Source of the DNA: Candidatus Thorarchaeota archaeon
GTDB taxonomy: Archaea; Asgardarchaeota; Thorarchaeia; Thorarchaeales; Thorarchaeaceae
Direction of reading: 5' to 3'
Assembly (NCBI GenBank): GCA_019057475.1
Contig: DXJO01000018.1
Location: forward strand, 62,001-126,000
DNA: 64,000 nt
Shown here: piece after piece, positions 13,580 to 46,819 of the stretch
Position numbering within the stretch: position 1 is the stretch's first letter
How the letters are laid out: each line of letters starts with the position of its first letter
Translations under genes and position numbers: made by a program
Notes under the pieces: generated by a model
Database searches by the model: none
Seen by the model: only the letters and a program-made list of their open reading frames with translations
Told to the model about the DNA's origin: nothing

Positions 13580-13596
13580 AGGGTAGTAAACAGCTG

Positions 13597-13754
13597 GTGC
13601 AAAGTTGGACATACCTGGACAATTCCATTGAGGGCTTTATATAGACCAATACGACATTGATTTCTGAGGAATACGACATACCTGTAAAGGTTCCTCACGG
13701 AGTAGTCCAGTGCCGTTTTCTGGACGTACTAGACTTCGGTGTCCAACTTTGTAC
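13597..13754. repeat. Inverted-repeat-bounded 158-base element, MITE-like
   Basis: The ends read GTGCAAAGTTGGACA (13597-13611) and TGTCCAACTTTGTAC (13740-13754), which are reverse complements except for one base. The interior codes for nothing recognisable. It begins 17 bases after a stop codon. The terminal arrangement suits a miniature transposable element, but I see no target duplication and no second copy in this window. Confidence 0.4.
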
Positions 13755-13859
13755 AACCTACAATGAACCGCAACCTAAAGTTGACAGTTTACATTTTGAA
13801 CTGATATCATTGTTCGCGTAGTTCTTTCCTACTCGCTACCACTTCTTCTCACGCTCCCT

Positions 13860-16498: not shown

Positions 16499-16701
16499 AG
16501 TCCAGCCTCCTCTATCATCTTGATTGCTTCCGGAGTTAGGAATAATAGGTCGCCCTCACGGAGCACATATCCTTGGAACATCCCGTCGCTGAACTCAAGT
16601 AGTTCTTCGAGTCTGTCAAACAACTTCTCAAACAAGTCCCTCAGGTCGGGGTGTATCTTTGGGTCAACGACTCTGCGTATGGTTGTTATTGTATCACTCA
16701 T
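16495..16701 (-). CDS. Small hypothetical protein of the D5-helicase operon
   Basis: A 68-residue protein, mostly helical (HPDLRDLFEKLFDRLEELLE) with a short strand-rich end (YVLREGDLLFLTPEA). Both ends overlap neighbours by 4 bases (ATGA), which argues that it is translated. No family is recognised. It might be an accessory or DNA-binding subunit of the helicase module. Confidence 0.7.
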   Translation of the reverse strand: MSDTITTIRRVVDPKIHPDLRDLFEKLFDRLEELLEFSDGMFQGYVLREGDLLFLTPEAIKMIEEAGL

Positions 16702-18752
16702 CTGGCCGCCACCTCCTTGCCTTTAGTGGTCAGCACAATCCACATTGGATTGCCCCGTTCCACGACCCAGCCCTTCGACATGAATTCAATCTTCAACATA
16801 CGGTCTTCGCCTGTGAGTCGTTTCACTTCTATTGCATCATCTAGACTCTCAGCATATCTGAACCAGAACTTAGCCAATCGGTGTGTTTTCTTCTCAGACT
16901 TCTGGTCAGTGAATCTATCCAGTTCTAGTGAAGCAGGTGAAACGACTGAAGCAGCCTCTTCGGAATCCTTTTCTTGGTGAGTCTTTTTATCCTCATTTTC
17001 ACTCCCAGAACTACTCCGTGAAAAGGATTCCAGAACAGGTGCTTCAACCGCTTCACCTGCTTCAGTTTTCACATCATATTCGTCTAATCTAGTCTGAGTA
17101 TCATCATACTCATACTTGAATCTGATGTTATCTATATCAACGCCGAGTGCCCTGAGGCCTACAAGGTCTATATCCAGACCTGAGTACGCTCTGACCTGTT
17201 TCCCTCCCTCAATACGAGGCTGACTCTCATTAATGAATGGTGCATATCTCTTGAGCTGTTTATGAAACCATGAGGTTGAGATGGGTTTCAAATCCTCAGC
17301 AACGCAGTACTTCAAATGCAAGTCGTACAATGAACTCTTCACGAATAGATCAGACTCGTGGTCCGGCATGATGAATTTCTCAACCATATACTGGACCGGG
17401 TTGCTCACTCGTAGATACTCAAGTCGCTCGACCTCCCAGCCTCTGTCACCGGTCAGCTTACCGTTCTTCCTCAGTCTTGACCATCCATCAAGTGCCTGAT
17501 TCAATATACCGCTTAGCTCTGTCGACGTTGTCAGTCGAGAGAGCAGCTTGTCACGCGGAACCGTGCCCTTCTCGCCCTTGAGAAAAGTATTTGGAAAGTT
17601 GAACACACGGAGTCTGCGCCACACGCCTGTAACGTCGTCATAAATTGGTGGTGGATTGTTGGATGAGAATATCAACACAGCTACGCTGTAGAAGCTAAAG
17701 CTCTCACGGAACTTATACTCCCCCTCTATGATACCTCCGCCTGTCAAATCTTTGATTCTGTTAGTATGGATGATAGGGGTATTCGGAATCTCCCCGGCTA
17801 TGTTCGCCAGTTTGCCACGGAGTCGACTTGACGCAAACCTGTTCTCAGCAAGTTGCTGAAGCGTCACGGCTGATACATTGGTCTTGCCCAAGAATGAGGT
17901 CATGACATCCAGCAGGACTGACTTACCGTTTGCTCCGGCCCCGACAAGAATGACCATCATATCGTACGGCCAGCCCTTCCACAGACAGTATCCAATCAAC
18001 TCGAAAATCGATTGAATGTCTTGGTCGTTCTCCAATACCTCTGACAGGAACTGCTTGAACGCTGGACAGTCTGCATTTGGATCATAGTCAACTGGAATAG
18101 CTGCAATCTGATATTCCTCAGGGTCAAAACCCTTCAAATGTTTCTTGGTGGTGAGGTTCAGGCGACCGCCCTTGAGGACCAGAATTTCTGCTGGACCTCC
18201 AAGCTCAATGCTCTTGTCATACGAGAGGTTTTGAATCATATTGACAGTTTCGTTGCAGATATGCGACCTGTAGTCAGCATTTGTCATCTGGGTGACAATC
18301 CTGCGGATGAAGTCCTCACCGTCCTTTGTCCAGACCCCTATATCTGGGTCATACCGCCAGAGATGGAAATGTTTGCCCTGTGTGTGGAATCTTTGCTCAC
18401 TCTGAAGCCACTCTGCTATCATTGACACCTTCCTAGGTGTGCCTTTCGTTTTCTGAATGGCAGTCGTAAGCTGTTCCAACGTCATACCAGTGACCTTGAC
18501 TCTCTCATGCTCTGGTTCCTTCTTCTTGGTCTTGACCTTGCCCTTCATCGATTTCTTCGGCGTTTTGGCTCTTGTCATTTCTAACACAAAGTCAACATGC
18601 ATTTTCTTACAGGCACCTCTAACAAGATGATTCTGAATCTGAAGAAAATGCTCTGCGTTAATCTCGGACTGAATCGGTTTTCTGTAACTCTCGATTGCGT
18701 CTATGATCTCACTCATGGAACACAACCATAATTCCGGGTCAAGTTCGTCCAA
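16698..18752 (-). CDS. D5-family SF3 helicase of a mobile element
   Basis: A 684-residue protein. A D5_N-like region (about 160-260) precedes an SF3 AAA+ core: Walker A GAGANGKSVLLDV near residue 270, a motif around NIAGEIPNT, and FSSNNPPPIYDDVTGVWRR, matching poxvirus D5 and archaeal plasmid or virus replication helicases. A C-terminal winged-helix region follows, then an acidic low-complexity linker. No AEP primase domain is seen at the N-terminus, unlike many primase-helicase fusions. The TTG start at 18752 has GGAGGT 7 bases upstream. It is the first gene of a four-frame overlapping operon and is good evidence for an integrated plasmid or viral element. Confidence 0.88.
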   Translation of the reverse strand: MDELDPELWLCSMSEIIDAIESYRKPIQSEINAEHFLQIQNHLVRGACKKMHVDFVLEMTRAKTPKKSMKGKVKTKKKEPEHERVKVTGMTLEQLTTAIQKTKGTPRKVSMIAEWLQSEQRFHTQGKHFHLWRYDPDIGVWTKDGEDFIRRIVTQMTNADYRSHICNETVNMIQNLSYDKSIELGGPAEILVLKGGRLNLTTKKHLKGFDPEEYQIAAIPVDYDPNADCPAFKQFLSEVLENDQDIQSIFELIGYCLWKGWPYDMMVILVGAGANGKSVLLDVMTSFLGKTNVSAVTLQQLAENRFASSRLRGKLANIAGEIPNTPIIHTNRIKDLTGGGIIEGEYKFRESFSFYSVAVLIFSSNNPPPIYDDVTGVWRRLRVFNFPNTFLKGEKGTVPRDKLLSRLTTSTELSGILNQALDGWSRLRKNGKLTGDRGWEVERLEYLRVSNPVQYMVEKFIMPDHESDLFVKSSLYDLHLKYCVAEDLKPISTSWFHKQLKRYAPFINESQPRIEGGKQVRAYSGLDIDLVGLRALGVDIDNIRFKYEYDDTQTRLDEYDVKTEAGEAVEAPVLESFSRSSSGSENEDKKTHQEKDSEEAASVVSPASLELDRFTDQKSEKKTHRLAKFWFRYAESLDDAIEVKRLTGEDRMLKIEFMSKGWVVERGNPMWIVLTTKGKEVAAR

Positions 18753-31739: not shown

Positions 31740-32048
31740 CTAGATCTCTTCGGATATGATGACCTCTAGCACATCAGAGGTTGTGGTTCCGCCAGTTGAC
31801 ACTATATTGAGTCTGCATTCCTCTTGTTGAAGGCGTTCCAGTAACTCACGAGATACTGTTTCCTTCTCGCACACGAAGATAAGGCTGCGTCTTGCAGTGA
31901 CCTCTTTTTTGGTATCTCTGCCGACTAGAAACGGTCTGTCCGCTCTCTCACACACAGCCTTTGGTTTTGCCCATATGTTCAAGGTTTCGCTTTGGATTCC
32001 GTCGTAACTAAATAACACGAAGCGGACTGATGAGGGAGAATCATGCAA
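31740..32048 (-). CDS. Hypothetical protein
   Basis: A 102-residue frame from a TTG. It contains short strands (VRFVLFSYDGI, RRSLIFVCEKE) and a Thr-rich STGGTTTSDVLEV turn. I know of no family. Its 5' end overlaps, in the opposite direction, the first copy of the gene-tail repeat, so its original N-terminus may have been altered by that insertion. Confidence 0.45.
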   Translation of the reverse strand: MHDSPSSVRFVLFSYDGIQSETLNIWAKPKAVCERADRPFLVGRDTKKEVTARRSLIFVCEKETVSRELLERLQQEECRLNIVSTGGTTTSDVLEVIISEEI

Positions 32049-32150
32049 CTAGATCCTAGAGCGCGAAAGACATATCTGGTCATCACTGACAAGGGGCGAC
32101 GTGTGGCGCAGAAGATCAGGGAGATTCAGGAGATCCTCGAGGATCCCTAG
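32043..32150 (+). pseudogene. Gene-tail repeat, copy 1: tail of a winged-helix-type regulator
   Basis: Reads KTYLVITDKGRRVAQKIREI then QEILE and a TAG, the C-terminal wing and last helix of a PadR/MarR-like regulator. It lacks the DNA-binding part. The same nucleotides recur in copy 3 (41945-42028) and, shortened, in copy 2 (34393-34433). Confidence 0.6.
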
Positions 32151-32211
32151 CAAACGATAACACAGAAGAAAGACGCCTGAGTGTCAATATGGGTTCTGTG
32201 GGAGTGATCAT

Positions 32212-32880
32212 GTGAAAGATACCGTCGAGATGGACTCACTCGGATTCCGTAGATGGCAGGACGAGTTAAGGCAAAGATTGTTTTCAACAGAGAAGGGAAT
32301 CCGAGTCCTGCTGGCGTTTGCAGGCCTACTAGGGTTTGTAGCAAGCTCGAGCGAGTTGTGGCTGACATCTTCGCTTTCATTCTTCTCTAGAATTCCTGAT
32401 TTGCCAGATGGGCTCTTGACCCCGGTCATTCTATTCTTTGTGCTCGTTATTCTCTATTGTGAGAACTGGAAAAGGATTTGTGAGCGGTGGGATTGGAAAT
32501 CAGGTATTGGGTATGGTCTGATCAGTGCAGGAGGGGATGTTCTAATCATGTGTCTGGTGACTTATGGGCTCTATCTAGGCATCGGAGAGTTGACGAGTGT
32601 GACTCTCCCCATATCATGGAAATTGTTATATCTTGCAGTCCCGCTGTCAATAGGGGAGTTCGCCTTGACCTCGATGATTTCTAACCTCTTGCAGAAAATC
32701 ATCTCTCTTGAAAAGGAAATTGATGAGGCTGGTAGAAGTTTGCAGGAGTTAGGTCAACGGGCAAGTAGAATCCCTCAGGAGGATCTGCGTACTTCTGAGC
32801 GCAGCCAGATAATCCGCGATTTTGTGAAGGACACTTCAGAACAACAGGGGGGGGAAGATGATGACAAAGAATCAGGCTGA
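32212..32880 (+). CDS. Membrane protein with C-terminal coiled coil
   Basis: A 222-residue protein with about four hydrophobic helices (around residues 26-45, 60-82, 98-122 and 125-150), then a helical, charged coiled-coil-like tail (LLQKIISLEKEIDEAGRSLQ) ending in an acidic QQGGEDDD stretch. GGGAG lies 6 bases before the GTG start. Its last 23 bases overlap the start of the TPR gene, so the two products are likely partners at the membrane. The family is not recognised. Confidence 0.65.
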   Translation: MKDTVEMDSLGFRRWQDELRQRLFSTEKGIRVLLAFAGLLGFVASSSELWLTSSLSFFSRIPDLPDGLLTPVILFFVLVILYCENWKRICERWDWKSGIGYGLISAGGDVLIMCLVTYGLYLGIGELTSVTLPISWKLLYLAVPLSIGEFALTSMISNLLQKIISLEKEIDEAGRSLQELGQRASRIPQEDLRTSERSQIIRDFVKDTSEQQGGEDDDKESG

Positions 32881-34375
32881 AGAAATCGAAGAAACGATTG
32901 CAAATTTGGTGCGAATGGTTGAAAAGCTGAAGAGTCAAGGCATTACGATCCAAAGCGATGTCATGGCCAAGATCCTCTCACGTATTGAGATTCTAGAGGG
33001 CAAGTTGAGATCTCTTGATACGTCTAGCGTTGATATGCAGAAGGCGATGGAGGAGATTCTTCCCAGGTTCGAGAAAATGGAAGTCGACTTCGGGAAATGT
33101 AGGGCCGTGTGTGAGCTAGGACAGGTGAAAAGGCCCTCGGGGAAGACCAAGAAGCTCTTTTCGAAACTGGATAAGCTTGCGAAGAAGGGCTCCATAGCCA
33201 AGGCTATCGATCTTGCCCAGGAATATCGTATCGAGTTTAAACAAGACCCTACTTTCTGGTACTATTTTGGGACCCTACACCTAGCCAATGACAATCCAAC
33301 GGAAGCTCTCAACTTCTTCGACAAGTCGGTGAAGCTAGACCCGGAGATGTTTGAGCCTCATTGTAGTTCTGTTATGGCATTGGCCGATCTTGACCGCCTA
33401 GACGACGCCAAATCGTACATTGTCAACTTGATAAAGAGCCATCCGATTCCGCCCTGCCATGGATTCTATAGTTTCGTTGGAAACATCCTGTGGAGAAAGG
33501 GATCCGTTGATGATGTGAACCAGATTGTTGAGAGTGTTACTCATCCACTGAAACCAGGCTGCACTCCATGTATCAAGGCCTTTCTGTACCTCAGTGTAAA
33601 GGAGGGGCAAAAGGCCCTTGATGCGTTGAAGGACGTCGAGGGAGTAAAATGTCCGGAATACAGACTGGTTCGTGCTGCTGCGCTAGGTAAGGCCGGACAT
33701 GCTGATGACTTTGTCGCTGAGATTGAATCCGTCAAACTGAAATTCGAGATTGACCCAATGATGTACCTTGTTCTGACACAGGCCATAAAAAGCTTCGATT
33801 CGAAAAGCCAGTGTGAAACCTTGAAGACCTTTGCAATGAAGATTATGAAGAAGATCAAGTGGAGAAAGGTGCTTGAGCCAAAAGGCAGACTGTTGGAGGC
33901 CGCAGCATACAAATCCTACAATCTGCGGTGTCCTGATGTGGACTTTCGTCTTCGTTTGCTCAAAGAAGCCGCAAAGCATCACGATTGTCCAGCCCTGCGC
34001 AATAACCTGATAATCACCTTAACTGACATCGGAAAGCCCGAGGAGGCCAAGAGAACTGCCAGGGAGGCAATCCGGAAGTACCCTGAAGACAATGACCTAT
34101 TGATTGGAGCGGCATGGGTTTTCTCCAAGGTTGGCGAAAGAAACCTAGCGTCAAAGGCAGTTGATGATGCGTTGAAGCGAGAGAAGATTGCAGGTGACTC
34201 TGATGACTTGGTCAGGCTTGCCGCAATAGCGAGAAATTTACAGCTTGGCTCCTATGACAGCATTGTTAGAAGTCTATACGACATCGTTGAGAAGGAGCAG
34301 CCGGAGATGCTTGAGTCTATGCGAGAGCGATTTCCGATGGGCGAAGATGAAGACATTAAGGCGTCAGAACCATAG
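32858..34375 (+). CDS. Tetratricopeptide-repeat protein with N-terminal coiled coil
   Basis: A 505-residue helical protein. Residues 5-75 form a coiled coil (EEIEETIANLVRMVEKLK). TPR-like helix pairs run from about residue 95 to the C-terminus, for example WYYFGTLHLANDNPTEALNF followed by FDKSVKLDP, and later TLTDIGKPEEAKRTAREAI. No enzymatic domain is seen. It begins inside the membrane-protein gene after a G-rich ribosome site. TPR arrays scaffold other proteins; with its membrane partner it may form a signalling or defence sensor, which is inference. Confidence 0.8.
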   Translation: MMTKNQAEEIEETIANLVRMVEKLKSQGITIQSDVMAKILSRIEILEGKLRSLDTSSVDMQKAMEEILPRFEKMEVDFGKCRAVCELGQVKRPSGKTKKLFSKLDKLAKKGSIAKAIDLAQEYRIEFKQDPTFWYYFGTLHLANDNPTEALNFFDKSVKLDPEMFEPHCSSVMALADLDRLDDAKSYIVNLIKSHPIPPCHGFYSFVGNILWRKGSVDDVNQIVESVTHPLKPGCTPCIKAFLYLSVKEGQKALDALKDVEGVKCPEYRLVRAAALGKAGHADDFVAEIESVKLKFEIDPMMYLVLTQAIKSFDSKSQCETLKTFAMKIMKKIKWRKVLEPKGRLLEAAAYKSYNLRCPDVDFRLRLLKEAAKHHDCPALRNNLIITLTDIGKPEEAKRTAREAIRKYPEDNDLLIGAAWVFSKVGERNLASKAVDDALKREKIAGDSDDLVRLAAIARNLQLGSYDSIVRSLYDIVEKEQPEMLESMRERFPMGEDEDIKASEP

Positions 34376-34392
34376 TGACGATTAGGAATTCG

Positions 34393-34600
34393 GAAGATCA
34401 ATGAGATCTAGGAAATCCTCGAGAAGGACTAGCGGATGAACCAGGTACGAAGGCGCGTTTCAGCAGCCTCATCCATCTCGGTCTCGAGAGCCTTCTTCAC
34501 TTTCCTGGAGAGGGCTTCGACATCTTTGCCCTCGGACATCGTTCGAATGACAAGCTCATCAATAGCATTCAGAGTATCAATGCGCACCTGATTGGCAAAA
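34393..34600 (-). pseudogene. Gene-tail repeat, copy 2
   Basis: The left 40 bases are the degraded plus-strand regulator tail. The remainder, read on the minus strand, encodes QVRIDTLNAIDELVIRTM, then a helical acidic stretch and AAETRLRTWFIR before TAG. The two convergent stop codons share one CTAG. About 175 bases match copy 4 (44534-44708) with roughly ten differences. Confidence 0.7.
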
Positions 34601-34667
34601 GCTAATGAGCAACATCTTCTAGAGCTCATCGACCTTGTGCTATCAGTCTTGCAGTAGGTGTGGGTAG

Positions 34668-36068
34668 ATGAATGAATCTGAACCTCAAGTACCAGATATA
34701 TCAGAAACAAACCAAGAACTGATTGATCTAATGAGTACATTCTACAAATCCTATAGGATGCGTTGTCTGGCTGTTCTCCACGAGGATAGTTATCACAGTA
34801 TTCATCTTTCAAAAACCTGGCAACCATTCGAAGTAATCGACTCTGTCATGGGAGAGTACAAAACCAACTCTTTGTTATTCATCGAGATGGAAGTTAATCG
34901 AAGGAACGATGAGCCGAGAAGCATCTTTGCAGAATCCAAGATTGAAATTGGGTCCCATGAAATATCACTCAAAACCTCAGGACACCCTCAGACGCTTCGA
35001 ATTGACCAGCTGTATCGAAATTCAAGAGTAGCTGCAGTAGGATATCTCTGTGAGTCACCAGGAATCGTATTGAAAACAACGGAATCTCTCCCGCCCTCAT
35101 TGAAGGATACAACAGAGAGAATAGATGAGGAAATAAGATACCATCCAACAGTGCCTTTTCAGAACCTAGAGCACTTTCTTCGCGGCTTGGGCATATATGG
35201 AACAAGGGATCTTAAACAATCGGGCGTTGATGAGTACATACCATTTTGGGCATGGATTGATGAAATGGAGGTTGAAGGAATGAGAGTGAATGTCAGATTC
35301 AAATATCATTCCAGCATGGAACCTAGACTTGCCGCCTATCTCTCAATTGAAACAGTGGATGGTCATCTTGAAACACAAGAAAAGGGCATCACAGGATTAG
35401 AGAGAGAGGAGATTGATCGAGGTATTGTTGTTGCAGCAGGAACATACATGCTACCCACGACCAATTCGCCAGCAGCCACCGCACGGATTGCTTTGGCAAT
35501 TGACAAGAAATACTCGTTGCACTATGATAGTCAAGAGATAAGTCCACCAAAATTGGATTTGTGGTCCATAATACATCGACTCGAGAAGAAAGAGGGACGA
35601 CTTCTTCAAATGTTAGAGGGGGAAACTGGTCAAGTTAATGTTGACAAACTTGAATTCAGTGTGGGGATACTTTTGGCAAGTTTAGGATTCAGGACTCTAT
35701 ACACAGGTAGAATTCTGGAACCTGGTCCTGACCTTCTCGCGATAGCTCCTAATGATAAAGACATACTTATTGTGGAATGTGGACGGGAGAAAATTGAGCA
35801 AAAACTGTCTGTTTGTGCAGAGAGAGTTGACGAATTTGGGAGGGAATTTTCTCAATACAAATATACTGGAATCGTTTTCACATCCTCTATAGTCCCTGAT
35901 CAAAGAAGATCGAAGCTAATGACTCCTGGAGTTGTCCTACTAGATGGAAATAATCTAAAGCAGCTACAGGAGATAGCAGCAAGAAGTCCCAATCCTGCGG
36001 CCATACTTAACACTCTCCTCCGAGCTAGAGGTACTGGATGGCCTGTTTCTTTTGAGAGTAAATGGTGA
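34668..36068 (+). CDS. Restriction-endonuclease-like protein with altered active site
   Basis: A 466-residue protein. The first ~320 residues are of unknown type and rich in strands. The C-terminal part matches the nuclease fold: VDKLEFSVGILLASLGF (leading helix), GPDLLAIAPNDKDILIVEC with P-D and V-E-C, then REKIEQKL. The lysine expected two residues after the glutamate is glycine here (E-C-G), so catalysis may be lost or may rely on another lysine. AGGTG lies about 7 bases before the ATG. A related tail survives at 30984-31208. It leads the McrBC module and may recognise a nucleic acid or modified base. Confidence 0.65.
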   Translation: MNESEPQVPDISETNQELIDLMSTFYKSYRMRCLAVLHEDSYHSIHLSKTWQPFEVIDSVMGEYKTNSLLFIEMEVNRRNDEPRSIFAESKIEIGSHEISLKTSGHPQTLRIDQLYRNSRVAAVGYLCESPGIVLKTTESLPPSLKDTTERIDEEIRYHPTVPFQNLEHFLRGLGIYGTRDLKQSGVDEYIPFWAWIDEMEVEGMRVNVRFKYHSSMEPRLAAYLSIETVDGHLETQEKGITGLEREEIDRGIVVAAGTYMLPTTNSPAATARIALAIDKKYSLHYDSQEISPPKLDLWSIIHRLEKKEGRLLQMLEGETGQVNVDKLEFSVGILLASLGFRTLYTGRILEPGPDLLAIAPNDKDILIVECGREKIEQKLSVCAERVDEFGREFSQYKYTGIVFTSSIVPDQRRSKLMTPGVVLLDGNNLKQLQEIAARSPNPAAILNTLLRARGTGWPVSFESKW

Positions 36069-36140
36069 TTAGAGACACCTTCGAGAAACTTGGGTAGAGA
36101 AAAAGTTGTTCGAGTGCGCGCGAAAAGCGGAGGAATTGAA

Positions 36141-37025
36141 ATGGAGAACAATGGACTTGAAAGGATAAGTAAGATGCTAGAGATAGCACATACTGACGCC
36201 GCTGTATTTCCACCTACGGACCTTTATAATGAGGGTTGGATGCTAAGGATTTTACTATCAATCCAATCAGAAGGGGTAGAATGCTTCCCTTTTACTTTTC
36301 AGCCTGGAGCAAGATGGTTTTCAGAAGCACAAATCGGTTCTCCGTTTCTTCCTCGTTTCCGAGGAGATCCACTAGCTGAGCGTCATACACATCTTGATGG
36401 AGCAATTGGGCATTTTGCTTTTCAGTCTGGAACGAAGACAGGGTTAACACTCACAGCTGATTCAAAGCAATTCGTGGTTACTGAAGCGAAGATGTTCAGC
36501 CCCTTATCCAAGGGAACAAAGAATGCCAAGTACTATGACCAAGCCACTCGAACAATTGCATGCATCGCTTGGGCAATTGGCCTATCAAACAGGTTTGTGG
36601 ATGATTTCGTGTCCCTTGGCTTTTATGTTATTGCCCCACATGAGCAAATTACAGGAGGCATTTTCTCATCGCAGGTCAATAAGTCAAGTATTAGAGAAAA
36701 AGTCAAGCTTCGCATCAGTGTTTACTTAGACGACGATAAAAAATACGATGAGTTGCAGATGTGGTAGAAGGATTTCTTCATTCCCGCTCTTGAACATATT
36801 GATATCCGCAGGTTCTCACTGGTCGAAACGGAATTCGAAAAGAAGGCGCGTGGGGGTAAGAGAAGAAGAGAAATCGGTAAAACTGACTATCAGGCTAGAG
36901 GAGTGATGTACCTCCCAGAAGAGTTTCGATTCTCATATCTGATGAAATTGCCTGAGAAGAGCGATATTGGGAAGGAGTTTGGTGTTACTTCCTGCAGCTT
37001 CATGATTCTCAGAGAAGAAGTGTAA
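36141..37025 (+). CDS. PD-(D/E)XK nuclease-like gene interrupted by an in-frame TAG
   Basis: GGAGG lies 7 bases before the ATG at 36141. The first 208 codons include LDGAIGHFAFQSG and, some 20 residues later, FVVTEAKMFSPLSKG, a D...E-A-K motif followed by YYDQATRTIACIAW (the Q-x-x-R helix of many restriction enzymes). A TAG at 36765-36767 follows ELQMW. The same frame then continues for 85 clearly protein-like codons (KDFFIPALEHIDIRRFSL, later FGVTSCSFMILREEV) to a TAA. It is either a recent nonsense mutation, possibly TGG to TAG, a sequencing error, or amber decoding. It sits 70 bases before mcrB and may belong to that operon. Confidence 0.65.
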
Positions 37026-37095
37026 CTGCATTAGGACCCCTCTTTCCCTCCATGGCATTCGGTACTTCAGTTGCCAGTAGTGCCGTTCGACATTG

Positions 37096-38826
37096 ATGGT
37101 AGTAAAGAACAGAAAAGCTCAAATCTTGGGTGATGGATGCTCGCACGAAGGAACCATGGTCCACATCACGGCTGACTACATCAAATCCGTCTTCAATGAA
37201 ACAATACGCAAGAATGTTTTTGTCGATCTATCAGGCAGGACATCTCTTTTAATTCCGACATATCTGATTCTCAAGATGATTGGCGTCAACAAGCATAGCG
37301 CTGTGCCGTACAATGAAAATACCGCCAGAGACGCAGCGTTTCTCTTGCATACACCCTATCTAAGTACTGAGGCCCATCCGCTAGAGAAGTACCTAATCAA
37401 TCCATTCCACAAGTCCTACCTGAAGGCATTCGGAAGTAAAGCCTTTTGGCGGGCTGAATCTCTCGACGATTATGTGAAGTTGGGAAGACACGGGCTCTGC
37501 AACAACTACGTTGGTGGTGGCACAATCTGGGATCGGATACTTGCAACAAGCGAGAAGACTCCTATTAGATTCCGAGCGAACTACATCGAAGCAATCAAGA
37601 AGGAGTGCGGGATATCCTACTCGAATCGGATTGACATCACCCAACTAGCTGCTTGGTGCTTCCGGGAGCTCGATTTCGACGGCGCACCTTCTGCTTCGAG
37701 GACAACGCAAGACGTAATTGAAACGTTTCTTGGAACATTCAACATAACGGAAGAAGAGCAAGATGCGCTCTTTGAGATAACAGGAGAATCGATTCAATTT
37801 AATTTGGCACCCTTAGACATGACCGAGGTACGAAGGGAATGTTTCAATCTCGATTCAAACGCGGATATTGTCATGGAGCCCCTCCTTCAACAGAATGAAA
37901 TCAACATAGAAAGGCGAGTGCATTTTATGAGTATCAACCCAAGCATCGAAGTCATAAGCGAATTACTCAGGATTAAGAAACAGATTATCCTTTTCGGACC
38001 TCCGGGTGTCGGAAAGACATGGATAGCAATGGAAATCGCAAAGGTGTCGGAATGGAACGGAAATGTAGAAGTCGTTCAATTTCATCCAACATATGGGTTT
38101 GAGCACTTCATTGGCGGATTCTTCCCTGCAAGTGACACCGAGATTACAAAGGCAGACGGAGGAGAAGTGGCTGCTGATACGGGAGCTCCACTCAAAATCA
38201 TCTACAAAGAAGGGGTCCTACCTAGGCTTGCCAAGGTTGCGGAAACTAACCCAGCTCTCCTCATCATTGATGAGATTAACCGCGGCAATTTATCGCAAGT
38301 ATTCGGGGAAACCATCATGGCACTTGACAGAGACTACAAAGTCGTCATAAGTTCCCACCCACGAGAATGCGAACTGCAACTCCCAGAGAATCTACATATA
38401 ATTGGCACAATGAATTCGACCGATAGAAGTATCGCAATTGTGGACTTTGCAATTCGTCGGAGATTCGCGTTCATTAGGCTGGAACCAGATGCTAGGATCA
38501 TTCGGGAACACTATAATAACAAGACAAAAATCGAAGAGGATAGTCAGAGTTTTGATCTTGTCGATCTGTTCGAAAGGATCAACTCCAGAATCTTGCGGAG
38601 CCCTGCACTGGGGAGAGACTTCTTGATAGGTCACTCCTACTATTTGCTACCTGACAAGGATTTTAGGTCGCTCGAGCGGACATTCAACTTCTCGATTCTA
38701 CCACTAATTGAAGAGTACTCTTATGGGAATCCATCACTTCTAGTTGAGCTGCTTGGGGAGAACCTGCCAAAGAGACTGACTGGCGAAGTCCTTCTAGGGG
38801 CGATTATGGACTTCCTGGAGGAGTAA
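37096..38826 (+). CDS. mcrB: McrB-like AAA+ GTPase/ATPase subunit
   Basis: A 576-residue protein. The AAA+ core begins near residue 300 with GPPGVGKTWIAMEIAK, followed by VVQFHPTYGFEHFIGG, the Walker B region LLIIDEINRGNLSQ and the MNSTDRS and FAIRRRF sensor motifs, all typical of McrB. The first ~290 residues are unlike the DUF3578 or EVE/PUA target-reading domains I know and probably give a different specificity. McrB hexamers translocate DNA and drive the McrC nuclease against modified DNA. A TTG codon directly before the ATG is an alternative start. mcrC follows by 25 bases. Confidence 0.9.
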   Translation: MVVKNRKAQILGDGCSHEGTMVHITADYIKSVFNETIRKNVFVDLSGRTSLLIPTYLILKMIGVNKHSAVPYNENTARDAAFLLHTPYLSTEAHPLEKYLINPFHKSYLKAFGSKAFWRAESLDDYVKLGRHGLCNNYVGGGTIWDRILATSEKTPIRFRANYIEAIKKECGISYSNRIDITQLAAWCFRELDFDGAPSASRTTQDVIETFLGTFNITEEEQDALFEITGESIQFNLAPLDMTEVRRECFNLDSNADIVMEPLLQQNEINIERRVHFMSINPSIEVISELLRIKKQIILFGPPGVGKTWIAMEIAKVSEWNGNVEVVQFHPTYGFEHFIGGFFPASDTEITKADGGEVAADTGAPLKIIYKEGVLPRLAKVAETNPALLIIDEINRGNLSQVFGETIMALDRDYKVVISSHPRECELQLPENLHIIGTMNSTDRSIAIVDFAIRRRFAFIRLEPDARIIREHYNNKTKIEEDSQSFDLVDLFERINSRILRSPALGRDFLIGHSYYLLPDKDFRSLERTFNFSILPLIEEYSYGNPSLLVELLGENLPKRLTGEVLLGAIMDFLEE

Positions 38827-38851
38827 CGCGACTTGCAAGAGGGACAGTTCA

Positions 38852-40090
38852 GTGCTGAAAATTGACACATACCTAGACAATCAGACAATTCCTTTGACTG
38901 AGGCGGAATCGCAGGAGCTCAGAGAAATCGGCAGAAAGCTTGAGATTAATCTGACCTTAGAGAATACGGATCAAGGCGTTGTCTTCTCACCTAACGGTCT
39001 GGTTGGTTCTGCGGCCCTTTCGACTCGCACAATAGTCATAGCTCCGCGCTATAGGGTTTTTGATTTCGATGTAATACTCCGGATGTGGCATTATGTTGGC
39101 TTTGGAAGGCTTGATGTGCCCAAGTCAGAAGTGGGTGCCACCATCAGCGATTTCTCCAAGTACGTCGTTTCCCTGTTCCTTTCCGAGCTTGACCGCTTGG
39201 TTAATCTGCGGGGTAGTTACATACAACATCAAGAGGAGATATCACATTTCAGAGGTCGAATGAAGTTCCCTGAGCAAGTAGTCATTAGATCGCTAAACCC
39301 CTCTCGCTTCTTCTGTGTATTCGATGAATTCACACTTGATAATCCAATGAATCAGCTACTTCTTCTGGCCCTAGAGAAGGTTTTCCTCTCTGGTCTGGCC
39401 GATGACAGGCCGCATGTGATCGCTAGACTTCTCAAGCGATTCGCCTTCATCAGAACGAGCGCACTACCCTTCAGCAGGGCTGAGATTGATGCTGTAATCA
39501 ACCAGGCCAAGAGTTCCGCGCTGGATCGGCACTATGAATTCGCGCTATCACTGGCCAGGATTATAGTCTTGGATATGGCCTCTGCTGCAAGGGGTGAAGG
39601 GGGCCTAACACAAGCCTTTCTACTGAACTACAATCTACTCTTCCAAGATTTCGTCACAAGAATCCTAGTTCACTTCACGAATCTCGATCTCAAATCCGGT
39701 CCCGACGTGGACTACTCATATTGGACAGACGAGAACGATGTTGATCACAGGCGTTTCATACGACCCGATATCGTTCATGGCTACAACGCAAAGGAAAAGG
39801 TATGCCTGAGTGTCTTGGATGTTAAGAACAAGGTCCCACCTCAGAAGGGGGATTACTTCTCGCCAAGCGACATCTATGAGGTTTTTTTCTATTCCCGTAT
39901 ATTGAAGGCGGAAAACATACTCCTAATCTACCCCATCAACATGGCACGTGACCATTACACACTCAATCTAGTAATGGATGATCAAGCAGTCAGAGTAACG
40001 GCTGTTTTTATTAACCTGCGGCAAGACACATCGGCCAACTTCCACCATGAGGTTAAGAGATTCTCTAGCGCGGTTGAGGCGCTGCTATAA
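38852..40090 (+). CDS. mcrC: McrC-like nuclease subunit
   Basis: A 412-residue protein with the McrC layout: N-terminal SPNGLVGSAALSTRTIVIAP, the central ISHFRGRMKFPEQ and LDNPMNQLLLLALE segments, and a C-terminal nuclease with RPDIV at 304-308 and LDVKNK at 322-327, giving an intact PD...D-x-K site. GAGGGA precedes the GTG start. With McrB it should form a restriction complex that cleaves modified (for example methylated) foreign DNA in the cytosol. The nearby methyltransferase does not contradict this, since McrBC targets only certain modified sequences. Confidence 0.9.
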   Translation: MLKIDTYLDNQTIPLTEAESQELREIGRKLEINLTLENTDQGVVFSPNGLVGSAALSTRTIVIAPRYRVFDFDVILRMWHYVGFGRLDVPKSEVGATISDFSKYVVSLFLSELDRLVNLRGSYIQHQEEISHFRGRMKFPEQVVIRSLNPSRFFCVFDEFTLDNPMNQLLLLALEKVFLSGLADDRPHVIARLLKRFAFIRTSALPFSRAEIDAVINQAKSSALDRHYEFALSLARIIVLDMASAARGEGGLTQAFLLNYNLLFQDFVTRILVHFTNLDLKSGPDVDYSYWTDENDVDHRRFIRPDIVHGYNAKEKVCLSVLDVKNKVPPQKGDYFSPSDIYEVFFYSRILKAENILLIYPINMARDHYTLNLVMDDQAVRVTAVFINLRQDTSANFHHEVKRFSSAVEALL

Positions 40091-40110
40091 TTCATTGGCA
40101 GCAACTGAAA

Positions 40111-40290
40111 CTAGGTCTTCTCCAAAACTCTAAGGACAGACTGGATGCTTCCTTCCAGCGACTTCACCCTTAGCTGAAGAGCCAATACTTCCTCCATTAG
40201 GTAAGTCAGCTTCTCTTCAATCTCCATTATCCCGTCAGAAGTCATCGGGAAGCCACTTGAATCCCTGTCAGCTTTCTTCCACTTTGGCAT
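40111..40290 (-). CDS. Small coiled-coil protein after the methyltransferase
   Basis: A 59-residue frame: a basic N-terminus (MPKWKKADRD), then a long heptad-like helix (IMEIEEKLTYLMEEVLALQL and on to SVLRVLEKT). It starts 11 bases after the methyltransferase stop on the same strand. It is probably a co-expressed oligomerisation or partner subunit. The composition and the regular hydrophobic spacing make a real gene likely; the function is unknown. Confidence 0.6.
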   Translation of the reverse strand: MPKWKKADRDSSGFPMTSDGIMEIEEKLTYLMEEVLALQLRVKSLEGSIQSVLRVLEKT

Positions 40291-40301
40291 TTTCTTCCGT
40301 C

Positions 40302-41723
40302 CTACGTTTCTTTTTGGAAATAGAGAATGCTCTCTCTAAGGGCAAATGTGCGTCTGATTCCAGACCGTCTTGTGCGGTCAATCTCTATGCCAGTTGGGCG
40401 GTATCCAATCTTCTGCGCTATCATCATGGTAATCAAATCGGTTGGAACATAAACGTCGAGGATTAGCGAGTCTCCTACGACCCACGCCACTCTGGCACCG
40501 TCATTAATGGACTTGTACATATTGCTGAGAACCAAGTGGATATCCTCAAAGTACTTCCTAAGTAACATCGGATAGTCCTTTCTTCTGATACCGATTCTCT
40601 CTCTCATTCTTGGTTTGCTGGCTGCAATAATATAGTCGAGCCAGTCAATCGAGAGGAGGGGGGGTTGTTTTGCGTATGACTTCATCATTGATCTGGAAAC
40701 GTTGTCACACAAGACCATACGGTCGCGGAGTTTGCTAAGGTCCTTTGTGGAAACAGCATCCTCCATCCAGCCTATCTCTAGCTTGTAGTTTCCAACGTAG
40801 TCGAAGCTATTGAGGTACGGTGGTGAGGTTATGACTGCATCAATTGCGATATCCTCAGGCAAAGCAAATGCCTTAGAGTCTTCACAAAACGAAATGGACC
40901 TTCCCTGTTTCTCCACCTTCGTCTGCACGAACTGAAGATCTCTGACGATTTCCTTGATCTTCTCTCTGAACAGCTGGAATGGTAGGTCTGGGTACAGCTT
41001 CTTGGATTTCTTCTTATCGTAGCCGATTGACGGTGATCTTCTCAAGTTGCTTGATGGCAGAAGGACACTCGCAAACGCCAGCTCGAAGTAGCATCTAAGG
41101 CGTGGGTCATCCACCAATCCTACCTGTTCCTTTATCCTTAAGATATTCTCAAGTATCTCAGGCTGAAATTGCCTTTCTGTTTTGAGGAAGGCAGGAGGTT
41201 CCACTGACGCCTTCTTTGAGAAGTCCATCGCGTCATACTGGCGCTGTATCTCTCTCGGATCAGTATCCCATGATGTCTTTGTCAAGAGCACTCTGAAGAT
41301 TGTAGGATTGATTTCGATACCAACAGAATCTATGCCTTTCATCATGGCAGCAACGTTGACGGTGCCAGATCCAGCAAAAGGGTCAAGTATCCGGTGATCG
41401 GAAGATAGCCCGAACTGCTCGATTATGTCATAGACGAAGCTCTCAGAGAAGCCTTCTAGGTAGCTGGTCCAACGATGAATTGGCCTCTGTTTGTTGTTTG
41501 CGAAATTCAAACCGCGGTTCAATAACCGATGAGATATCTCAATGTCAGGAAATCTAAGCTTGAACTCATGGAGGTAAGTGTCAGGCGTCTTGAAATGATG
41601 ACCGATTTCCTTCCAAAGGGTGTAGTTGCGACTGTAGAACGACATGACATCTCTAACTATCGAGCTCGTTTGGCCCTGTCCTGTGTCCATGAAATCCTCC
41701 AGCGTTTTCATGTTGCTAACCAC
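40302..41723 (-). CDS. DNA methyltransferase (DPFAGSGT / TSPPY type)
   Basis: A 473-residue AdoMet-dependent methyltransferase. The AdoMet motif ILDPFAGSGT lies near residue 115 and the catalytic ITSPPYLNSFDY near residue 300. S-P-P-Y is usual for N4-cytosine or N6-adenine enzymes. The long stretch between the two motifs may hold target recognition. Target sequence and partner nuclease are not evident; it may protect host sites or be a solitary enzyme. It is transcribed towards mcrC. The GTG at 41723 and the ATG at 41711 (MKTLEDFM) are both possible starts. Confidence 0.88.
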   Translation of the reverse strand: MVSNMKTLEDFMDTGQGQTSSIVRDVMSFYSRNYTLWKEIGHHFKTPDTYLHEFKLRFPDIEISHRLLNRGLNFANNKQRPIHRWTSYLEGFSESFVYDIIEQFGLSSDHRILDPFAGSGTVNVAAMMKGIDSVGIEINPTIFRVLLTKTSWDTDPREIQRQYDAMDFSKKASVEPPAFLKTERQFQPEILENILRIKEQVGLVDDPRLRCYFELAFASVLLPSSNLRRSPSIGYDKKKSKKLYPDLPFQLFREKIKEIVRDLQFVQTKVEKQGRSISFCEDSKAFALPEDIAIDAVITSPPYLNSFDYVGNYKLEIGWMEDAVSTKDLSKLRDRMVLCDNVSRSMMKSYAKQPPLLSIDWLDYIIAASKPRMRERIGIRRKDYPMLLRKYFEDIHLVLSNMYKSINDGARVAWVVGDSLILDVYVPTDLITMMIAQKIGYRPTGIEIDRTRRSGIRRTFALRESILYFQKET

Positions 41724-41859
41724 GGTGTTATTCTACTAAGCTACCTGTCCTATATGATGTTTCGAAAAATGGCATTTAAACCCATAAGTCGCACCAGCAG
41801 ATAGCGATTGCATACGATTTATTACATGCAGGTAGTGTCTGTGCTTTGGTGGGTTGAAG

Positions 41860-42064
41860 ATGGCAACTTCAAGGATTGAAGCTCTACGGAACAATCTATT
41901 GGATTCTACGACAAGTTTGTACCTTGAGAAACCTGTCTGCCCCCAAGACATTCCTGGTCATCACTGACAAGGAGCGACGTGTGGCGCAGAAGATCAGGGA
42001 GATTCAGGAGATCCTCGAGAAGGACTAGCGGATGAACCAGGTGCGAAGGCGCACTTCAGCAGCC
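41860..42064 (+). pseudogene. Gene-tail repeat, copy 3, with a frameshifted upstream part
   Basis: From 41945 the DNA repeats copy 1 almost exactly (KTFLVITDKERRVAQKIREI, QEILEKD, TAG at 42026-42028) and runs into the last ~12 codons of the convergent minus-strand gene up to 42064. Before it, an ATG at 41860 opens MATSRIEALRNNLLDSTTSL, but a one-base shift at the junction puts it out of frame with the tail. It is therefore a remnant, not an intact regulator. Confidence 0.65.
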
Positions 42065-42121
42065 ACATGGAGCATGACGATTCATAGACTACATGCTGAT
42101 AAATCATTTAAGTAAGGGCAA

Positions 42122-43243
42122 ATGATGGCGGAACGGGACTGGGCCGTGTCGTATGATCATGCTGCATTCTCAGGAAGAATACACACAGCCTACAAGCATA
42201 AAATCCTGAGAAAGTATTTACATCCGTGGATGGTGATACTCCGTTCGACAAGCCCCACGATTGCTTATGTTGATTGCTATGCAGGTCCAGGAATCTACCC
42301 TGATGGGACTGAGGGGTCCCCTCTCATTGCACTGCAGATAGCCGATGATGTCATGTCGAAATACGGTTGTAGAATCTGGTGCATATTCAATGACCGGGAT
42401 GAGAGGGTCATGGAGCAGCTACGGAACTCTTTGCGAGATCGCTATGAATGCGAACAGGTGCTAGTATTCTCATCTCAGACTGATGCGAGAGATTGCGTGG
42501 ACCAAATACTCAATGATGAACGGTTCGCAAGTAACGGAAGACTCAGTGTACCGATGTTCTTCTTCATAGACCCTTTTGGATTGAATGTACCCATGCAGAT
42601 GCTCAAGAGGATCATGGAGCAACCAAAGACAGAGATACTTGTCACGTTTATGGTCAAGGACGTAGTTCGATGGGGAGAAACTCATGCGTACGAACAGACT
42701 ATGAAAGAACTCTTCGACCATCCAAGTCCACTAGATTTGATTGAACAGGCTGATGGCAGGGACTTCGAGCAGCAGGCAATCAATGCGTTCGTAGGCAGGC
42801 TGCATACTCATGCTGGCGTCAAGCACGTAATCAAATACAGAGTCTTCAATGAGCAGGAGCGCAGGACTCTGTTCTATCTTGTTCACGGGAGTAACCACTT
42901 CAAGGGCTTCAAGTTGATGAAAGACATCATGTACAAGATTGGACTTCTTGGTGCTTTTGCATATCTCGGTCCAGACCATCCAGACGAGGCGCAGACATTC
43001 TTGGTGCCATCGTTTGGAGATCCAGAGCTTGAGCAATTGAAGAGGCTTCTGGTAGAGAAGTATCCTGGCATGAGCACATCCTTTGGAATAATCCTTGAAG
43101 ACATGTACGCAGAGGTCCCGTTCATTGAGAAGCACTTCCGTGCTGCACTTCTGGGTCTTGAAGAGGACGGGAAAGTTGAAATCTTCGGATTCAGACGTCG
43201 TAAAGGGACTTTGAAGAAAGGCCACGGAGTGAATTTTCTGTGA
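42122..43243 (+). CDS. tcmP: Three-Cys-motif partner protein TcmP
   Basis: A 373-residue protein with the TcmP hallmarks: KHKILRKYLHPWMVIL, then IAYVDCYAGPGIYPDGTEGS (a Rossmann-like AdoMet-binding start), WCIFNDRDERVM, and FFFIDPFGLNVPM. TcmP proteins resemble methyltransferases and regularly accompany a three-cysteine, radical-SAM-like protein, here encoded 116 bases downstream. Their function is not established, but they are common in mobile and defence islands. AAGGG lies a few bases before two ATG codons; the second (42125) could also be used. Confidence 0.85.
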   Translation: MMAERDWAVSYDHAAFSGRIHTAYKHKILRKYLHPWMVILRSTSPTIAYVDCYAGPGIYPDGTEGSPLIALQIADDVMSKYGCRIWCIFNDRDERVMEQLRNSLRDRYECEQVLVFSSQTDARDCVDQILNDERFASNGRLSVPMFFFIDPFGLNVPMQMLKRIMEQPKTEILVTFMVKDVVRWGETHAYEQTMKELFDHPSPLDLIEQADGRDFEQQAINAFVGRLHTHAGVKHVIKYRVFNEQERRTLFYLVHGSNHFKGFKLMKDIMYKIGLLGAFAYLGPDHPDEAQTFLVPSFGDPELEQLKRLLVEKYPGMSTSFGIILEDMYAEVPFIEKHFRAALLGLEEDGKVEIFGFRRRKGTLKKGHGVNFL

Positions 43244-43359
43244 CCGGAACGAACAGAAGCCCTGTTGGAATAACTGGTAGTCAAGAGAATCCGACACATC
43301 TTTGGGTGAAAATGGGTGGTTCAAGTACGCTGCAGATACACGAGGATAGGGTGTCCTGA

Positions 43360-44436
43360 ATGAAGGCCGTAGAAACGAAGGAGAATCCCGACCATGAGAG
43401 TCTGGCTGAAGACCTCATGGAGCAATACCATCATCAAGGAGTTCCAGTCATCGACCTGATCAAAGACTTGGCCAAGTCAGTCGAGTCACACATCATTGCA
43501 ATGGCAGTTGTACTCTTGGAGCAGCAGGCGCGAGTCTATGTGGAAAGACATCCTGTTCTTCATAATGGGAAGCTCCGACGCGACCTTCTCTCTTCAGACA
43601 TCGTATACTTCGATACGTTCCCGAGCATCCGTCGGCGCACGCTGCTATACAAAACTGCAGTCGAGTACGGCGATTTCACCATCAACCATGTGCTTGGCTG
43701 CATGCATGGGTGCCAATACCCATGTTATGCAATGCAGATGTCCAAGCGCTACGGGAGAGTCAAGAATGAGGAAGATTGGATGCATCCCAGGATTGTCGGG
43801 AATGCACTGGACCTGCTTGAGAAGGAGATTCCGCGTAACAACCATCAGGTTCGATTCGTTCACTTATCCTTCATGACTGACCCATTCATGCATGACCCGG
43901 TCAACTGCAGAGTAATCCCCTGGATTCAGGAGCTCACACTGAAGATCATCGATAGGTTGAATCAGGAGGACATCAAGGTGACAGTGCTCACGAAGGGTCT
44001 GTTACCTGAGGTCTTGAAGGAATCTTATTTCAACACCGACAACGAATACGGCATCACACTGGTTTCCATGGATAGAGAGTTCCAGGATAAGTATGAACCA
44101 TTCTCAGTGGATGCCACCAAGCGTCTTGCAGCCTTGAAGGAACTCCATGATGCAGGACTGAAGACATGGGTGAGCATTGAGCCGTATCCAACACCCAACA
44201 TCGTGAAACAAGACTTTGACGGGTTGCTTGAGAAGATTTCTTTCGCTGACAAGATCATCTTTGGCAAGTGGAACTACAATCCGATAGTTAACGGCTACTC
44301 GGGCCAGACGGAGTTCTACACGACTTGTGCTGACAGAGTTATTGAGTTCTGTAATGAACGTGACATTCTCTATCACATCAAAGAGCGCACGCCAAGAAGC
44401 AGCATTGAAACTCAGGACTTGTTTGCTGAGGAATAA
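43360..44436 (+). CDS. Three-Cys-motif (radical SAM/DUF5131-like) protein
   Basis: A 358-residue protein. The motif NHVLGCMHGCQYPCYAMQ places cysteines at 114, 118 and 122 (C-x3-C-x3-C), close to the cluster-binding motif of radical SAM proteins and of Gp37/Gp68-like (DUF5131) proteins. HLSFMTDPFMHDP, VTVLTKG and WVSIEPYPTPN follow, as in those TIM-barrel proteins. It is the expected partner of TcmP. An iron-sulfur cluster and AdoMet chemistry are likely; the substrate is unknown. It closes the module lying between repeat copies 3 and 4. Confidence 0.82.
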   Translation: MKAVETKENPDHESLAEDLMEQYHHQGVPVIDLIKDLAKSVESHIIAMAVVLLEQQARVYVERHPVLHNGKLRRDLLSSDIVYFDTFPSIRRRTLLYKTAVEYGDFTINHVLGCMHGCQYPCYAMQMSKRYGRVKNEEDWMHPRIVGNALDLLEKEIPRNNHQVRFVHLSFMTDPFMHDPVNCRVIPWIQELTLKIIDRLNQEDIKVTVLTKGLLPEVLKESYFNTDNEYGITLVSMDREFQDKYEPFSVDATKRLAALKELHDAGLKTWVSIEPYPTPNIVKQDFDGLLEKISFADKIIFGKWNYNPIVNGYSGQTEFYTTCADRVIEFCNERDILYHIKERTPRSSIETQDLFAEE

Positions 44437-44533
44437 CCCGTACGCGTCAGTTCTGGTGTTCAGGCAGTGGACAAATGATCCTGTGATATCTCCATCCCAT
44501 TGCTCGACCACGCCATCATTCTTCAAGCCTTCT

Positions 44534-44708
44534 AGGACTAACGGATGAACCAGGTGCGAAGGCGCACTTCAGCAGCCTCATCCATCTCGACCTCGAGAGC
44601 CTTCTTCACTCTCCTGGAGAGGGCCTCGACATCCTTGCCCTCGGACATCGTTCGAATGACAAGCTCATCAATAGCATTCAGAGTATCTATCCGCACCTGA
44701 TTAGCAAT
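44534..44708 (-). pseudogene. Gene-tail repeat, copy 4
   Basis: The minus strand encodes the last ~57 codons of the same convergent gene as copy 2 (QVRIDTLNAIDELVIRTM through AAEVRLRTWFIR and stop), without its front. The plus-strand regulator tail is reduced to GGACTA. It directly follows the radical-SAM-like gene. Confidence 0.7.
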
Positions 44709-45649: not shown

Positions 45650-46819
45650 CTAGGACTCATCATTCATCTCGGCGTATACTTCTTCAGCTGGTTTTCCTTC
45701 TGCTGACTCGACGATATAATCAACAAACTTACGAAGGGTCTTGACCTCATCCCGCAGTATCGCTATATCTCTCTTATGAGCAGACTCGGCCTTCTTGATT
45801 CCCTCTACAGTCAGTGGGAATCCACACGAGGGACAGAATGATGCTCCCATGTCGATACCATCCATGCCGCAGCTCATACAGTTCAGATAGTCGAGCATCT
45901 GCCTTCTCGGGACCTCAACCTCCTTGCCGTAAATCTTTTCCGCGACCTCGTTCTCAACGTCATGAGTCGAGAGGTGGACATAGACCGGCTGCATGATTGT
46001 GGCATCCTTCCAGCCGACAAGTTTGGCGAGGGTCATACCCAAAACTCCTAGCTTGACAAACTCAGTAATCCGAGTGTGTCTGAACATGTGGACAATCCGT
46101 TTCTTCCCCGTGATGCCAGCGTCCTTCAAGACTGTCTTGACAATCGAGTACAGATGCGACTTGGTCAGAGGAGATACGTCACCCTGCATTGTGGTCCAGA
46201 GTGGACCCTTGCCAGTGGGATGGATGTTGAGCCAAGCCTGTAATGCCCTCAGTGACTTGCCCATAGGAATCACGCGGACGCCTGTCTTACCCTTCACGAC
46301 TATCTTGTAGTCTGCGGGTCCGCCATTGATTGTGACGCCCTCGCAAGTCATGCTGAGTATCTCTCCCTGACGGCAGCCTGACTCATATAGGACTTCAAGT
46401 ATTGCCCTGTCGCGGGTGTTCTTTGTTGCATTGAACATCCGCAGTAGTTCGTCGGCTGTGTACAAGTCCTCTACTGTAACGGTAGAGCTCTTCCTGTCAA
46501 TGCGTGGCATCTCGACCTCATCCAAGTCGTGCTCGATGCCATAGTGCTCCAGAGCACGCTTGGCAATCCCGTACCTCTTCCAGAGAGTGTAGGGCGACAG
46601 CGTCTTCATCAGACCTCGGAAGTACTTTGCATTCAGGCTCTTGATTGGTGGAAAGTTATTAAGAATCAGGCGAACATCCTCCTTGGTGGATTCCGCCTTC
46701 ATGCTGTCCTCGTACTTGTTCTGGAAAAATTCCTCATAGTGGATGATTGTTTTTCTCTTCTCGTCCGACCCTTGCGTATTATTCGAGTCTTTCACGATTA
46801 TACTAAGGGACTCAATCAT
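45650..46819 (-). CDS. Tyrosine recombinase/integrase with zinc ribbon
   Basis: A 389-residue site-specific recombinase. The N-terminal SAM-like binding domain is followed by a catalytic domain with the first Arg in LYESGCRQGEIL, a Lys in VVKGKTGVR, the H-x-x-R box HMFRHTRITEF, and the nucleophile Tyr in QPVYVHLS. After the catalytic part comes a zinc ribbon (CMSCG...CPSCG) and a coiled-coil tail. This C-terminal zinc ribbon is unusual against bacterial integrases but known in archaea. It may mobilise part of the island to its left. The start lies at the island edge, next to the inverted repeat at 46853. Confidence 0.9.
   Translation of the reverse strand: MIESLSIIVKDSNNTQGSDEKRKTIIHYEEFFQNKYEDSMKAESTKEDVRLILNNFPPIKSLNAKYFRGLMKTLSPYTLWKRYGIAKRALEHYGIEHDLDEVEMPRIDRKSSTVTVEDLYTADELLRMFNATKNTRDRAILEVLYESGCRQGEILSMTCEGVTINGGPADYKIVVKGKTGVRVIPMGKSLRALQAWLNIHPTGKGPLWTTMQGDVSPLTKSHLYSIVKTVLKDAGITGKKRIVHMFRHTRITEFVKLGVLGMTLAKLVGWKDATIMQPVYVHLSTHDVENEVAEKIYGKEVEVPRRQMLDYLNCMSCGMDGIDMGASFCPSCGFPLTVEGIKKAESAHKRDIAILRDEVKTLRKFVDYIVESAEGKPAEEVYAEMNDES

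Follow-up and report, generated by a model that had tools for sequence, protein, structure and literature searches.

The window, a 64-kb stretch of one contig of a Thorarchaeota genome, was compared with itself by blastn. Four related pieces (J1 to J4) with identities of 84–96% were recovered, the same four copies that an earlier sequence-only reading had claimed. At E<1e-5, the comparison gave no other repeats in the 64 kb except one 46-nt inverted pair near 17 kb. The pieces were placed in the coordinates of a composite of about 250 nt, consisting of the tail of a regulator gene and a partner gene. Each of them sits between gene modules, again in agreement with that reading. The features are as follows.

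16698..18752, minus strand: D5-type primase-helicase, with 41% identity over 533 aa to the one encoded close to the intact regulator in genome G004
32067-32141, plus strand: J1, composite 1-75, winged-helix regulator tail alone (KTYLVITDKGRRVAQKIREIQEILE), without the partner part
32212..34375, plus strand: cargo A, a 222-aa protein without Pfam match and a 505-aa TPR protein, between J1 and J2
34393-34598: J2, composite 45-250, degenerate last 31 nt of the regulator tail plus the partner
34668..41723: cargo B, a 466-aa and a 225-aa protein, an McrB-like AAA protein, McrC and a type II-like DNA methyltransferase (the latter on the minus strand)
41945-42068: J3, composite 1-124, full 75-nt tail plus the first ~44 nt of the partner 3' end
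42122..44436, plus strand: cargo C, TcmP (three-Cys-motif partner) and a radical-SAM/DUF5131 protein
44534-44707, minus strand: J4, composite 77-250, partner piece alone (71-aa protein) with one in-frame stop
45650..46819, minus strand: tyrosine integrase with C-terminal zinc ribbon, 0.9 kb beyond J4

Both gene ends are present in J2 and J3 only, J1 being a regulator tail and J4 a partner tail, and most of the window copies are pseudogene fragments. The partner share of J2 is the 3' part (170 nt) of a minus-strand gene, with overlapping stops at 34429-34432, and in J3 the stops overlap on the CTAG at 42025-42028. Such an overlapping CTAG had been claimed for all copies and was found in these two; J1, which has no partner, ends on its own TAG at ~32148-32150 (in a CTAG of its own), and J4 has CTAA and no regulator. 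J4 is 93% identical to J2, with weaker similarity running on to ~44810. Because the copies differ by 4–16%, exact repeats in the window are short. Modules A, B and C have flanking direct repeats of 31, 80 and 48 nt, respectively. The 466-aa and 225-aa proteins of cargo B gave no match in Pfam or PADLOC. The TcmP of cargo C matches TIGR04474 and, in PADLOC, PDC-M30A, and has one distant relative (27%) across 46 other genomes of the family. In the whole genome nine junction-type matches were found, five of them outside the 64-kb stretch.

The plus-strand tail corresponds to the final ~25 codons of the gene for a winged-helix regulator of 95 aa, which is present intact on contig 22 of the same genome. 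This regulator is weakly PadR/HxlR-like and divergent from a small gene, a pair also present in G010 and G004. The last 60 nt of J1 match the intact regulator of contig 22 exactly, and both tails found in genome G008 are likewise identical over those 60 nt. A profile search of 228 Asgard genomes recovered close relatives of the regulator in the Thorarchaeota family only and weak ones in two other families. The viral collection searched held no relatives of either the regulator or the partner. The 95-aa protein is probably the repressor of a mobile element.

A perfect palindrome, TAGGATA-NN-TATCCTA, follows the stop of the contig 22 regulator (L019 8275-8290) and one tail in genome G020 (L023 3598-3613). 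It is a candidate operator of the cargo promoter, and TAGGATAGTTATCCTA is a putative binding sequence for the contig 22 regulator. The palindrome was rejected as an operator common to the joint: it occurs on contig 22 and at a single G020 tail and is missing from the window copies, and so does not belong to the joint in general.

The minus-strand part belongs to the gene of a 71-aa helical protein, which is intact on contigs 22 and 32 and twice in G008. Differences between the partner copies are mostly synonymous (synonymous against nonsynonymous-type differences of 11 to 2, 5 to 1 and 13 to 6 in three comparisons), which argues that the partner is a working gene under purifying selection, or was one until recently. 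Its predicted fold (two helices, mean pLDDT 70) was too plain for a fold search. The partner genes of contig 22 and G008 differ at 4 of 72 third positions, against 204 of 372 for RNA polymerase. This near-identity of partner and tail points to transfer between genera, provided that the short G008 contig on which it depends (G008:C361, 7.3 kb) was binned correctly. In the partner alignment 26 of the 78 site pairs were incompatible, without clustering. Local duplication of one scar within the island is not favoured, because J2 has three sites in common with the copy G008b and others with J4, although the PHI recombination test on the same alignment was not significant (p=0.39).

An intact regulator/partner pair, for which the sequence-only reading had advised a search, is present on contig 22. 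The order is intact regulator, nuclease-like protein (no family match), DNA methyltransferase, DUF262/NsnA-type protein, HEPN protein and, in the opposite direction, intact partner. Since contig 22 holds this cargo between two intact genes, the cargo slot is directly visible there, and the cargo fills exactly the interval between the regulator stop and the partner stop. A loaded slot with both genes intact is known this once. The unit has a tail at one end only, with no second tail before the partner and no duplication. Genome G020 has a TIR-like effector gene with a tail on either side. A further G020 tail precedes a 286-aa protein, behind which stands a tail attached to a broken partner. The defence-like cargo at the tail/partner borders differs between the window, contig 22 and G020. 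The copies are found mostly among defence genes or genes of mobile elements, in support of the earlier reading; some tails precede genes without defence annotation (contig 43, G008).

Related convergent pairs were found in three other genera. In G030, G034 and G039 a related winged-helix gene and a small partner converge with a 4-nt stop overlap (TTAG in G030 and G034, CTAG in G039) and without cargo. The partner proteins of these three genomes are mutually related (30–60%), and their link to the 71-aa protein comes from position and size, that by sequence being weak. Because adjacent convergent pairs of like kind occur in three other genera, the convergent junction appears to be ancestral, with partner homology between the two groups weak. 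Empty junctions occur in G008, where tail and full partner gene abut twice on the 7.3-kb contig. The single-contig genome G006 has a fragment of a regulator convergent with a partner (37% over 54 aa), and the partner is present once more at a distance of 1.1 kb. In this genome, flanked by housekeeping genes, a unit made up of the partner gene and a membrane protein of 167-170 aa is repeated (L102 8596-10584). Genomes of the same genus gave no junction match, and no close relative or strain with an empty version of the window locus was found.

The window integrase is one of only eight integrase matches in the genome and is 44% identical over 156 aa to a partial integrase beside the tail at C51:10414. 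Two of the eight matches lie within 2 kb of copies, because the window integrase adjoins J4 and the partial integrase adjoins that tail. The latter stands directly behind the partial integrase, downstream of ParB_N and primase genes, and intact regulators are located near ParB-like (G010) and D5 primase (G004) genes. The genome encodes three D5 primase-helicases, the window one included. Genomes G010 and G039 have a further membrane protein in common (E 4e-25). The D5 primase-helicase and the integrase suggest that much of the 14–47 kb region is a remnant of one or more integrated elements. No tRNA genes were found in the window, no transposase was recognised among the border ORFs read or scanned, and no inverted repeats of at least 25 nt were present at 28–48 kb. 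No intact multi-copy transposon, the alternative raised alongside the original claim, explains the copies.

Further repeats were observed on these contigs. An inverted repeat of 189 nt with 90% identity is shared by window positions 13580-13768 and G000:C51:31107-31295, just behind a thioredoxin-like gene, and may be an element boundary. A second convergent junction with overlapping stops is present on G000:C51 (L022 9807-11021), between an integrase tail and a small 138-aa protein, and its flanking pieces recur on contig 43. A zinc-ribbon tail, CPFCGAKTEQGLLKCQNCRADL, ends different membrane/secreted proteins adjoining the partner (L019 12493-12816, L020 4731-5759, L018 6209-6550) and is another recurring gene tail. 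A repeat of ~145 nt lies at or near the ends of contigs 22, 32 and 43 and also occurs in G008 (L019 18176-18320, L020 23-167, L021 11771-11915, L018 4547-4706).

Ten tails were compared by pairwise local alignment. They fall into six left contexts, and pairs from different contexts mostly lose similarity 72–79 nt before the end of the tail (67 in two comparisons with G008a), with the exception of the class of C51:10414 and G008b, in which similarity is lost at 60–66 nt. The left edge lies 73–78 nt from the tail end in four of the five truncated context classes. With truncation points scattered randomly along the gene, it would be very unlikely for four classes to fall within a span of 6 nt (an estimate of ~1e-4 or less, in which independence is assumed and unproven). 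The right contexts are few as well and combine variously with the left ones. One left context is joined with the partner gene (G008b) and with the integrase tail (C51:10414), the partner is found behind two different left contexts, and the contig 22 promoter region stands behind the intact regulator and behind a truncated G020 tail; the left flank of J3 is common to G008:C361. This reassortment, together with the near-constant left edge, is the strongest support for exchange at the scar, and the edge is the fact least explained by simple decay. A profile match first suggested that the G008 tail continues into a decayed regulator; this was rejected, as the upstream 200 nt score no better than shuffles. 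An RNA element at the joint was likewise discarded, with no Rfam match.

The scars are best explained, with a probability of about 0.6, as the flanks of a defence-cargo slot beside the regulator of a mobile element, joined by recombination at short homology. A family of integrated Thorarchaeota mobile elements would carry the slot, and the window pieces would be its worn flanks. In the elements the 95-aa winged-helix protein, probably the repressor, would meet the 71-aa helical protein tail to tail with a four-base stop overlap, and defence genes would enter between the two stops, oriented like the repressor gene, as seen once on contig 22. Repeated arrival of loaded units may have enlarged the island. 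Under selection the cargo would have been retained as the genes of the element fell into decay, so that the final 75 nt of the repressor gene remained at one flank and the partner gene at the opposite one. From the reassorting contexts we infer that cargo entered by recombination at the flanks, new cargo being joined to old at short identical stretches, most likely by homologous recombination. The exchange at a repeated scar, homologous or site-specific, that had been proposed originally is supported in part, by the real gene pair, the cargo between both genes on contig 22 and the reassorting neighbours.

Alternatively, the fragments could be passive. Loaded elements would then have been inserted side by side at an integration-prone locus, for which the nearby integrase and D5 primase suffice, and the fragments would have hitchhiked with no role in joining cargo. 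The pseudogene state of most window copies, the in-frame stop of J4 and the degenerate tail of J2 fit this, but not the reassortment of left and right contexts around the 75-nt tail, its near-constant left edge in several genera, or the identity of the last 60 nt in four tails, which suggests that the tail takes part in joining. We consider passive scars unlikely.

At the other extreme, the 75-nt tail could itself be a unit devoted to recombination, with defined edges, at which cassettes are joined as Thorarchaeota build up and exchange their defence genes, and which is kept as DNA even without its gene; this is a doubtful proposition. Under site-specific integration, the 3' end of the regulator gene would contain an attachment site, either the tail or the overlap around CTCGAG...CTAG, and tandem integrations would leave a tail at every border of cargo, much as islands that target tRNA genes leave 3' gene ends at theirs. 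The near-constant left edge of 73–78 nt, the two integrase matches near copies and the tail-cargo-tail layout of G020 are all as expected of such integration. The last codons and the downstream bases, however, vary between the tail copies, which have no common cargo-end sequence, and neither a recombinase recognition sequence nor conserved cargo ends were found at the copies. The single-strand fold of J1 is no better than chance against shuffles (z of -0.6 and 0.1); that of J3 is better (z of -2.2 and -3.2), but this can be put down to a hairpin located within the coding sequence of the partner, and the hairpin is weaker in J2 and G008b. The contig 22 cargo, moreover, has no second tail before the partner. 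Site-specific integration is accordingly judged improbable.

Insertion with long target duplication, in which each defence unit entered the regulator/partner junction and duplicated 31–80 nt of target, has little to recommend it. The direct repeats around A, B and C and the restriction-modification-like nature of B are in its favour, as is a published precedent in H. pylori (PMC3031569 and Nobusato et al. 2000 cited there), which has restriction-type cargo and direct repeats of tens of nt from a target gene in common with the window. In the present case, unlike that one, the target is a gene pair that is mobile and multi-copy in its own right. The empty junctions of G008 are not at the window locus, and the one loaded slot, on contig 22, lacks a duplication. 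An artefact of assembly or binning of this metagenome-assembled genome is hardly credible: contigs 22, 32 and 43 and those of G008 and G020 are short and several break at repeats, but the window copies differ by 4–16% and the regulator/partner arrangement recurs in independent genomes, the single-contig G006 included.

The defence-cargo slot can be set beside several known systems. In Rhs/CDI orphan cassettes, short homologous gene (anchor) fragments precede exchangeable cassettes; here, in contrast, the fragment is a regulator tail unfused to cargo, and no expression-site switching was seen. Integron cassette arrays have a repeated sequence between cassettes, as does the island with its repeat of ~75 nt. 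Unlike in integrons, the repeats here are remnants of coding genes of variable completeness and there is no integron integrase, the window integrase reaching 15.5 bits with the integron integrase model, the cut-off of which is 265. Integron and insertion-sequence explanations each fail at least one tested feature. Aloposons and HeimV1 (PMC8813620) are also integrated elements in Asgard archaea, but aloposons integrate at tRNA genes, which the window lacks, and carry giant genes.

The closest likeness is to the defence hotspots of phages and satellites, one of which lies between repressor and integrase (PMC9122126). In the hotspots of P2-like phages, P4-like satellites and other prophages, a fixed slot flanked by conserved genes of the element takes up antiviral cargo that varies (PMC9122126). 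Here, in contrast, the host is an Asgard archaeon, the slot lies between two convergent stops and several worn flank copies stand along one island. The slot is empty in G030, G034 and G039 and loaded on contig 22, with weak partner homology between the groups. By this layout the slot would belong to the hotspot class, the element being judged from nearby ParB, D5 primase and integrase genes.

Most accounts of how defence islands grow are drawn from the genes that they contain. Here the joints can be read directly: one lineage of Asgard archaea, a group with poorly known mobile elements, shows the ancestral junction without cargo, a slot with cargo and several slots in decay. Further defence cargo can be sought with the tail and partner sequences as probes. 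By analogy, the defence-cargo slot in Thorarchaeota would work like the known phage and satellite hotspots.
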